This document shows, one piece after another, positions 2,113 through 43,215 of a stretch of DNA of 64,000 bases. The stretch comes from Lachnospiraceae bacterium (GTDB lineage Bacteria > Bacillota > Clostridia > Lachnospirales > Lachnospiraceae): the NCBI GenBank assembly GCA_015056975.1, contig SVFG01000001.1, positions 1 through 64,000 on the forward strand. The letters are read 5' to 3'. The position numbers were made by a program, and so were the translations under genes. The notes beneath the pieces were generated by a model, which made no database searches, was not told the origin of the DNA, and saw only the letters and a list, made by a program, of their open reading frames with translations. Numbering within the stretch: position 1 is the first letter of the stretch; each line of letters opens with the position of its first letter.

Positions 2113-2133
2113 TGTGTTATGTAGGAGGCAAGT

Positions 2134-3312
2134 ATGGCTGAAAAGCGAGACTACTACGAGGTCCTTGGCGTAGACAAAAATGCAGACGAAGCTGCAATTA
2201 AAAAAGCATATCGTGTGCTGGCTAAGAAGTATCACCCGGATGCCAATCCCGGTAATGCTGAGGCAGAGAAAAAGTTTAAGGAAGCTTCAGAGGCTTATGC
2301 AGTGTTAAGTGACCCTGAGAAAAAGCGTCAGTATGATCAGTTCGGTCATGCTGCTTTTGAAGGCGGAGCAGGCGGTGCAGGAGGCTTTGATTTCAGCGGT
2401 GCTGATTTTGGAGATATATTTGGAGACATTTTCGGTGATTTCTTCGGCGGTGGTCGCAGAAGCAGTGCCAGAAACAATGGTCCCATGAAGGGTGCCAACC
2501 TTCGTACAAGTGTCCGCATTACCTTCGAGGAGGCAGTGTTTGGCTGTAAGAAGGAAATTGAGCTTACCGTAAAGGAAAACTGTAAGACCTGTAACGGTTC
2601 CGGTGCAAAGCCCGGTACCTCCCCCGAAACCTGTACCAAATGTGGAGGTAAGGGGCAGGTAGTATATACCCAGCAGTCCTTCTTCGGAACAGTCCGCAAT
2701 GTGCAGACCTGTCCCGATTGTCAGGGAAGCGGTAAGGTGATAAAAGAGAAGTGTACGGATTGTCACGGTACCGGTTACATCCCCATGAGAAAGCGTTATT
2801 CTGTGGATATTCCTGCAGGTATTGACAACGGTCAGTCTACCAGAATGCCCGGTCTCGGAGAGCCCGGCACAAACGGTGGTCCCAGAGGTGATGTGCTGGT
2901 AGAGGTAATTGTAGGACGTCATCCCATTTTCCAGCGTCAGGAGTTTAACATATTCTCTACCGTACCGGTATCCTATGCTGTGGCGGCATTGGGTGGAGAA
3001 ATCTTTATTGATACCGTGGATGGCAAGGTTATCTATGATGTGAAGCCCGGAACACAGACCGACACCAAGGTACGTCTGAAAGGTAAGGGTGTTCCTTCCT
3101 GGAGAAATAAGGATGTGCGCGGTGACCACTATGTAACCTTAGTGGTACAGGTGCCTGATAAGCTGAGCCATGAGGCGAAGGAGCTGCTCAAGCAGTTTGA
3201 TGCCCTCACAGGCGATTCCTTAAATACTACCAAGAAAAAGGACGAGAACGACGAAGAACCCAAGGAACCGAAGGATTCCAAGGATGGGAAGAAAAAGAAG
3301 TTTTGGAAATAA
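2134..3312 (+). CDS. dnaJ: Chaperone protein DnaJ (J domain, G/F region, four CxxCxGxG zinc motifs)
   Basis: [30 protein letters not shown] motif, zinc-finger repeats. Confidence 0.99.
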
Positions 3313-3318
3313 AGTAAG

Positions 3319-3350
3319 CTGCCGTGCTAGGGATTAGTACGGCAGTTTTA
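3319..3350 (+). terminator. Rho-independent terminator after dnaJ
   Basis: CTGCCGT ... ACGGCAG followed by TTTTA. Confidence 0.75.
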
Positions 3351-3561
3351 GTTTGGGCGGGCAGCATGGGCGGCTTAGGGCAGGTATTTGTTATCGCAGG
3401 CACGCTTTCGCTACGGTTCGCAGCGCAGCGGCACTAAGCTCGAAGACGAAAATCGCAAGGCGATTTATCGCCTTTACCTCGCTAAGGGCCGGCGTGCTCA
3501 CAGTGCACTGCTTATAACAAACACCTACCCTTGCCTACCATACTGCCCGCCCAAACTAAAA
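3346..3561. repeat. Long hairpin element copy 1 (about 45-bp arms around a conserved core)
   Basis: Left arm agtttgggcgggcagcatgggcggcttagggcaggtatttgttat is near-complementary to right arm ataacaaacacctacccttgcctaccatactgcccgcccaaact; core GCAGGCACGCTTTCGCTACGG...CCGGCGTGCTCACAGTGCACTGCTT is also found at 42.5 kb. Confidence 0.85.
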
Positions 3562-3563
3562 GT

Positions 3564-3583
3564 GCCTGCGGGAATCCGCAGGC
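3564..3583. terminator. Terminator-like hairpin at the outer right edge of element copy 1
   Basis: GCCTGCGG-gaat-CCGCAGGC. Confidence 0.5.
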
Positions 3584-3615
3584 GCTTCATCAAAGTATTA
3601 TTTTATAATAAAAAA

Positions 3616-26184: not shown

Positions 26185-26332
26185 AGATGAAAGAGTAAGG
26201 CTGCGGATATGTTCCGTAGCCTTTTTCATGCACAGTAGGGAGGGAGTAGGTGGGATACCATGGTTTTATGATTCTGGGTTACGGATGGGTATTTTCTAAG
26301 CATTGTGGATTATGTTTTGTGACTTTCGGGTC

Positions 26333-26364
26333 GGTGCGCACATGCCTCCATGCATGGGCGCACC
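26333..26364. repeat. Perfect hairpin in loop of element copy 4
   Basis: GGTGCGC-a-CATGC-ctccat-GCATG-g-GCGCACC. Confidence 0.9.
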
Positions 26365-26365
26365 T

Positions 26366-26389
26366 AAATCGCTCATCCTTGAGCGATTT
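26366..26389. repeat. Second perfect hairpin in loop of element copy 4
   Basis: AAATCGCTCA-tcct-TGAGCGATTT. Confidence 0.9.
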
Positions 26390-26657
26390 TCCCTATATGC
26401 AATAGCACAATGCTTGAAAATGCAGCCATCCTCCACCAAGAACAAAAACTATGGTATCCCCCCGCTCCCCTCCTATCTATACCAGCAAAAGGAACACACA
26501 ATATCCGCAGCCTTACGTTGCACGAAATGAAAAAGTTGGGAGTTGTTTTGGGTATTGCGCATATAGTATCATCAATTTAAAAATTTTTAAAAAATTTTGA
26601 ATTTAGGTATTGCAAAGTGGACATACTTCATGTATAATACATCAAGTAATACGAAAT

Positions 26658-42375: not shown

Positions 42376-42414
42376 AGATGTTATGGGAATACCCGCGGAG
42401 AAATTCTGCGGGTA

Positions 42415-42622
42415 TTTTTACGTCCGGGGGCAGGAGGAGTGGGGCGGATGGTGCCATGGTAGCCGCAGGCACGCTTTCGCTATGCTTCGCATCGCAGCGG
42501 TACTAAGCTCGCTTAATTGCATCTTGCGACGCAATTACCTCGCTAAGGACCGGCGTGCTCAGAATGCGCTGCTTGTACCATGGTACCCTCCGCCCCGCTC
42601 CTCCTGCCCCCGGACGTAAAAA
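42415..42622. repeat. Long hairpin element copy 2
   Basis: Left arm acgtccgggggcaggaggagtggggcggatggtgccatggtag is near-complementary to gtaccatggtaccctccgccccgctcctcctgcccccggacgt; core near-identical to element copy 1. Confidence 0.88.
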
Positions 42623-42722
42623 TGCACGTTATGCATGTTTTATGTGCGTATTTTTCAACTGTATTTTTCTCAGTAAGTTTATATATAATATATCTATCAT
42701 AGCAAGCACAGAAAGGAGTATT

Positions 42723-43145: not shown

Positions 43146-43215
43146 GAAGTGGACGGCGAGGCGCTGCTTGTGCCATGGTATGCCCTTCGCGCGTCTGACG
43201 CCATCCACTTCTTCG
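43144..43215. repeat. Truncated relic of long hairpin element (copy 3)
   Basis: AAGAAGTGGAcGGCG ... CGCCaTCCACTTCTT ends; contains GCGCTGCTTGTGCCATGGTA (43161-43180) matching element copy 2 GCGCTGCTTGTACCATGGTA (42566-42585). Confidence 0.75.

Follow-up and report, generated by a model that had tools for sequence, protein, structure and literature searches.

The window, i.e., the whole stretch of 64,000 nucleotides analysed here, contains a giant hairpin element just beyond the terminator of a gene that we take, from its J-domain sequence, to be dnaJ. The element consists of a conserved core flanked by inverted arms. A second copy and a remnant were also located, as was another giant hairpin that is built alike but has a different core. 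The features are given below; all element-end coordinates are approximate.

2133–3312, plus strand: open frame of 392 amino acids, presumably dnaJ, the upstream neighbour
3319–3349, plus strand: putative intrinsic terminator of dnaJ (hairpin followed by TTTT), assigned from sequence; abuts and partly overlaps the 5′ arm of copy 1
3341–3394, plus strand: 5′ arm of copy 1, G-rich, hypervariable among copies
3395–3512, plus strand: conserved structured core of copy 1, family A (core A); 88.4 bits with covariance model R1
3404–3411, plus strand: bulged mini-hairpin GCTTTCGC in the core of copy 1; in nearly all copies its loop is a GNRA tetraloop when read on the minus strand
3442–3473 (limits approximate), plus strand: variable apical hairpin in the core of copy 1; length and sequence vary by subfamily, pairing is kept
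3513–3566, plus strand: C-rich 3′ arm of copy 1, the complement of 3341–3394
3556–3586, minus strand: putative intrinsic terminator on the far side of copy 1 (minus-strand GCGCCTGCGGATTCCCGCAGGCACTTTT), assigned from sequence
26220–26492, no strand assigned: third giant hairpin, same build, different core; inner arms GGATACCATGG / CTATGGTATCC
26276–26438, minus strand: TwoAYGGAY RNA (RF01731), alternative core, family B; 72.6 bits (gathering 43), E = 2.6e-10
42409–42463, plus strand: 5′ arm of copy 2
42464–42573, plus strand: family A core of copy 2; in G079, a relative, its orientation to the flank is reversed
42574–42628, plus strand: 3′ arm of copy 2
43161–43190, plus strand: family A remnant (3′ end of the core and inner 3′ arm); 87% over 30 nt

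By inverted-repeat detection, the arms of copy 1 were placed at 3341–3374 and 3533–3566, and local alignment paired 46 of 54 arm positions. The stretch 3310–3600 had a folding energy of −152 kcal/mol (z = −11.3). The preliminary description had spoken of inverted arms ending in T-tracts; the inverted arms were found, but the T-tracts belong mainly to the neighbouring intrinsic terminators (3319–3349 and 3556–3586). For copy 2, the segments 42409–42468 and 42569–42628 were 87% complementary, with a folding z of −11.9. The claim that the same core recurs at 42.5 kb was borne out, the cores at 3395–3512 and 42464–42573 being 77% identical. The outer arms of the two copies are unrelated and each copy is nevertheless self-complementary, as had been described, and the same was observed in copies beyond the window. 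It may be noted that the remnant at 43161–43190 lies ~530 bp past copy 2.

Copy number, range and fold of core A

When core A was searched by BLAST in the 2.7-Mb draft genome from which the window comes (G000, the own genome), 40 full places were found, plus one short weak match. The covariance model R1 (87 positions, 20 pairs) was built from 17 sequences, the own-genome rows of the alignment being freed of the apical hairpin. At E ≤ 0.01 it located 63 places in the own genome, the weakest of them close to the threshold, so that the element is not confined to the two copies first described. R1 matched 72 of the 101 sampled genomes of the same genus. In a sample of 196 genomes of the order, 13 of the 22 from the same family (Lachnospiraceae) gave matches, and there were none outside that family. 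An exact-pattern scan of named genomes returned at least 117 stretches, mostly from Lachnospiraceae; the matches listed include Roseburia inulinivorans, Eisenbergiella tayi, and Oribacterium sinus. A few pattern matches carried other labels (e.g., Mogibacterium, Schwartzia, and Muribaculaceae metagenome bins), which are given here as recorded.

Core A had no match in Rfam 15, either for the element (at the gathering threshold and at E 10) or for its relatives (at gathering), and a literature search found no paper on the family. Core A is a widespread structured family that is missing from Rfam. The preliminary description had made its case depend on arms, copies and Rfam, and it stands on each count: the outer arms are not shared among copies, more copies exist, and an Rfam match is absent.

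Giant hairpins were also sought directly over 1.62 Mb (the window plus G079, a close relative), using a hairpin score threshold that, like the arm window length and the 60% same-change assumption of other statistics, was set by us. There were 50, against one in Markov-shuffled sequence; a stricter scan had given 34, and the threshold was relaxed before families were counted, the shuffled control then being 1. Among the 50, 22 clustered with core A, 16 with TwoAYGGAY, seven formed one tandem array, and ~5 were of other kinds; the TwoAYGGAY match of the window belongs to this set. On contig C24 of G079 (L271:11071–13044), tandem units of ~256 bp, each a giant hairpin, match neither core A nor core B.

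The core (~90–120 nt) is predicted to form, on one strand, a basal stem, a bulged mini-hairpin, internal helices, and a variable apical hairpin. Among 108 distinct copies, drawn from many species, standard pairs filled 96.4% of the paired cells, 16 of the 20 modelled pairs had changed on both sides, and compensatory cells numbered 300, compared with 82 in shuffles. The covariation score was 0.395, as against 0.165 ± 0.006 for shuffled alignments and at most 0.094 with the structure slid, for an alignment that was fitted to R1 itself and so is biased towards the modelled pairs. The two strongest covarying pairs overall (columns 20–178 and 21–177) are unpaired in R1, and the equivalent of pair 20–178 was also seen in a structure-free MAFFT alignment of 38 own-genome copies. 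This covariation supports selection on a single-strand fold of core A, which is the part of the element for which the earlier suggestion of selection on structure finds support. There are also conserved features that are unpaired, namely the bulge CACGCTYNCGCT and an A at column 176 (105 of 107 copies). Since these persist within an otherwise homogenising palindrome, selection on the core would be needed to explain them.

The mini-hairpin, GC-UYNC-GC, is nearly invariant, and its loop on the minus strand is of the GNRA type in nearly all copies. A plus-strand U.G occurs at columns 42–160 in 29 of 108 copies. Hence, the strand signals of the core conflict, the U.G fitting the plus strand and the GNRA loop the minus. 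Folding energy was lower on the minus strand for 85 of 109 cores. Wobble pairs of the core were tried as a strand test and set aside, one column favouring plus and another minus. In one own-genome subfamily (L239–L246), the family A base carries an apex of two hairpins (GAGAATTGC..GCGATTCTC and GTCGCTGCCGAGCGAC).

The copies lie at the 3′ ends of genes. Where neighbours of own-genome copies could be read (n = 31), 15 lay between convergent and 16 between co-directional genes, and none between divergent ones; ORF calling was crude here, and in 11 further copies a frame was called right through the palindrome. In the co-directional pairs, the orientation of the core was even (8:8). The copies are intergenic, and often stand beside or behind ordinary intrinsic terminators. 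No telling ORF family or cis transposase was found to recur next to the copies, the only neighbours to recur in many genomes being large paralogous families (ABC transporter, regulator-like). Neither of the draft genomes G000 and G079 contained the Y1 (HUH) transposase, PF01797, and mobilisation by a Y1/RAYT enzyme was rejected on this ground.

Arms and orthologous loci

In most copies, the arms pair at 72–98% over ~30–70 nt; a few copies that are decayed or at contig ends pair over less. For deduplicated loci, outer arms scored 16.3 within a copy and 6.6 across copies. Next to the core, ~12–16 nt of arm show partial conservation, in two types (GGATACCATG and GGTATCTGTTAT). Farther out, little information is left at any position, with values tending to zero in the outer arms, and most of it reflects base composition: 15–25 nt from the core, the 5′ arm is 54–59% G and 14% C. 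In the own genome and G079, 5′ arms were strongly G-rich and 3′ arms C-rich on both strands; that the bias holds on both strands follows from the arms being inverted repeats. Identical cores were found in unrelated arms (L030/L031). Two places on contigs C10 and C163 of G000 (L007/L008) hold nearly the same element with an identical 3′ arm and an altered 5′ arm, and may be strain variants or a duplication.

Arm mismatches of the G.T and A.C types numbered 46 and 85 in the own genome, 45 and 37 in G079, and 158 and 198 overall, with no consistent preference for G.U over A.C. As the own genome favours A.C and G079 does not, arm wobble is uninformative as a strand test.

Orthologous loci were compared with G079 (~1.56 Mb; flanks mostly 84–99% identical), i.e., within one species pair represented by two draft metagenome assemblies. 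At the 11 loci where core identity was ≥ 96%, on which the inversion count rests, the core had the same orientation in six and was inverted in place in five (L038/L104, L023, L024, L020, and L033; L023, L024, and L020 were anchored by a single flank). For L038/L104 the cores are identical and the arms near-identical, and the core alone is reversed. The longest exact arm matches in the inverted pairs were 6–26 nt (11–26 nt for L023, L020, and L033), and 46 and 24 nt for L038. The k-mers usual in final assembly exceed these lengths, and assembly collapse is therefore an unlikely source of the inversions.

Changes in the two arms were correlated. Of 362 columns compared at 11 loci, 10 were altered identically in both arms, compared with ~2.1 expected if the arms changed independently (P = 7.5e-5). 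The signal is strong at one locus, L033, which contributes six of the 10 compensated columns and in which the two arms share a 2-bp insertion; without L033, the correlated change is weak.

Core replacement was also observed. At L016, L031, L233, and L234 the arms match the ortholog, yet for the own core there are 18–31 other G079 cores more similar to it than the ortholog, a pattern that could come from gene conversion between cores. The converse was seen at L229 and L004, where the ortholog's core matches best, in outer arms that are unrelated. At three loci (L002, L032, and L037), G079 has TwoAYGGAY where the own genome has core A. Arm homology across this replacement was equalled by seven of 2424 background pairs for L002 and by 28 of 2424 for L032, and a swap of cores within old arms is possible at these two loci, judging from such homology. 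There was no arm homology across the difference at L037, which fits replacement of the whole intergenic region. Several core-less orthologs resemble deletions, that at L010 lying between TAGCC direct repeats; a clean empty insertion site was not found among the orthologous loci, most of the core-less ones being of this deletion-like kind.

TwoAYGGAY has been published as a probable RNA that is non-cis-regulatory (PMC2864571), and CsrA binding has been suggested for it (PMC4333381). It was present in 25 of the 101 genomes of the genus, as against 72 for core A. Like core A, it is multicopy in some of these genomes, and it takes the place of core A at orthologous loci; the inner arm motif GGATACCATGG is common to some copies of both. 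Unlike TwoAYGGAY, core A had no RF01731 match even at E 10 and no evident sequence similarity to it, and a pair of AYGGAY loops was not evident by eye in the aligned family A cores. By their architecture, the TwoAYGGAY hairpins appear to be the same kind of object as the core A hairpins. A candidate RNA since 2010, TwoAYGGAY thereby gains a genomic context, that of multicopy hairpins able to replace a core A that itself flips.

In a closed genome, G006, core A and TwoAYGGAY are joined in a composite of ~500 bp, the ends of which are conserved (TAAATGGAAAGTTAGT / ACTAACTTTCCATTTA). These composite units are often inserted flush with stop codons, and, as is usual for a repeat family, one copy resembles another in its arms. 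Units with paired ends ranged from ~470 to 1216 bp. The 1.2-kb unit bounded by terminal inverted repeats was considered as an autonomous partner and rejected, as it contains a tandem array and no transposase. At L390 (G006:1674200–1675900), composite-like ends surround a tandem-repeat array. At L393 (G006:672400–673600), a separate hairpin with core A alone was seen between an atpG-like end and an atpD-like start, a position that is probably inside an ATP synthase operon.

Origin and maintenance of the hairpins

We consider it probable, with a fair measure of doubt, that the hairpins are non-autonomous mobile structured elements residing at gene 3′ ends, whose arms are kept paired by template switching in replication and whose core is flipped likewise. 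A base change or gain in one arm would, on template switching by the polymerase, be copied to the other arm, so that the stem of each copy could drift independently and yet stay paired, without selection on the arm sequence. The same switching between arms would invert the core in place, and cores may be replaced or homogenised between copies. Both homogenisation of the arms and inversion of the spacer are documented outcomes of template switching at inverted repeats (PMC8604942), and such switching predicts that arm mismatches show no G.U preference, as was seen overall. Homogenisation of arms by templated copying had been offered as the other explanation in the preliminary description, and the compensated changes, the shared insertion at L033, the lack of a G.U preference, and the core inversions all speak for it. 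The published spacer inversions involve very short spacers, with 2–5 substituted bases (PMC8604942). As these are far below the ~110 nt found here, recombination between the arms or a site-specific enzyme could be what flips the core. Moreover, template switching alone does not explain the multiplication of copies, and trans-acting mobility or conversion would be required; the core may be moved by an enzyme acting in trans, with selection favouring propagation of the element and not a host function. No mobilising enzyme turned up beside the copies or, for Y1, in the own genome and G079, and this speaks against the reading, as do the lack of a clean empty site and the clustering of the few compensated changes at one locus.

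More tentatively, the giant hairpins might be long-lived, locus-specific landing sites, and the cores interchangeable mobile units that enter at the tips, core only and in either orientation. This we hold to be possible but doubtful. If true, mobile elements would here propagate by aiming at the tips of palindromes that renew themselves, and TwoAYGGAY would become a mobile element instead of a regulatory RNA.

Two explanations would place the hairpins in the service of the host. In one, the core is a trans-acting small RNA, multicopy for reasons of dosage or location, that is protected or presented by the arms. The strong covariation of the core, the nearly universal GNRA-type loop on the minus strand, and the lower folding energy of that strand (85 of 109) agree with it, as does the resemblance in site type and architecture to TwoAYGGAY, the suggested CsrA binder (PMC4333381), for which a sponge role has been proposed as possible. 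However, the core is evenly oriented with respect to neighbouring genes and flips between orthologs, its own strand signals (plus for the U.G at 42–160, minus for the GNRA loop) disagree, the outer arms keep no common sequence that might serve as a promoter, copies often stand behind terminators, and the arm mismatches show no consistent G.U preference; we therefore regard a small RNA family as unlikely. That the hairpins are bidirectional terminators or mRNA 3′-end structures, blocking read-through between genes, is suggested by their position at gene 3′ ends, where no own-genome copy separates divergent genes, and by the terminator-like T-tracts at the arm ends. Separate ordinary terminators are, however, often already there, a conserved core of 110 nt with a bulge and internal loops would be superfluous for termination, and the G006 copy at L393 apparently lies inside the ATP synthase operon, which makes such a role quite improbable.

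Still less probable, in our estimate, is that the element is an ordinary MITE, mobilised by a DDE transposase through terminal inverted repeats that have decayed past recognition here. The composite unit of G006, with its conserved ends TAAATGGAAAGTTAGT / ACTAACTTTCCATTTA and its frequent placement flush with stop codons, speaks for such a history. Against it, the own genome and G079 have no such ends, identical cores sit in unrelated arms (L030/L031), and of the G006 paired-end units (~470–1216 bp) the 1.2-kb one holds a tandem array and not a transposase. The ends of ERIC- and Correia-type MITEs are conserved across a family. The core A hairpins are like them in being ~100–200 bp, intergenic, and able to form a long hairpin, but differ in that the arms are unrelated between copies; terminal repeats conserved in the MITE manner were lacking in the own genome and G079 and were found solely in the G006 composite unit.

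The elements also resemble REPINs, and the REP sequences associated with RAYT (TnpA-REP), as small intergenic palindromes that carry no gene and are present in at least tens of copies. REPINs keep their palindromic ends and vary in the middle. Core A elements have the reverse arrangement, a conserved middle and variable arms, and the Y1 family is absent from the own genome and G079; GTAG- or CGTC-tagged conserved palindromic ends were not seen, the information in the outer arms falling towards zero. Template switching at quasipalindromes is alike in that both arm homogenisation and spacer inversion, as described there (PMC8604942), were seen here. It differs in that the yeast cases concern single short repeats whose spacers are very short, and here a dispersed family has structured spacers of ~110–180 nt. 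Each genome offers dozens of natural replicates in which the rewriting of palindromes can be followed over evolutionary time, and elements lying in both strand orientations can separate explanations at the RNA level from those at the DNA level.
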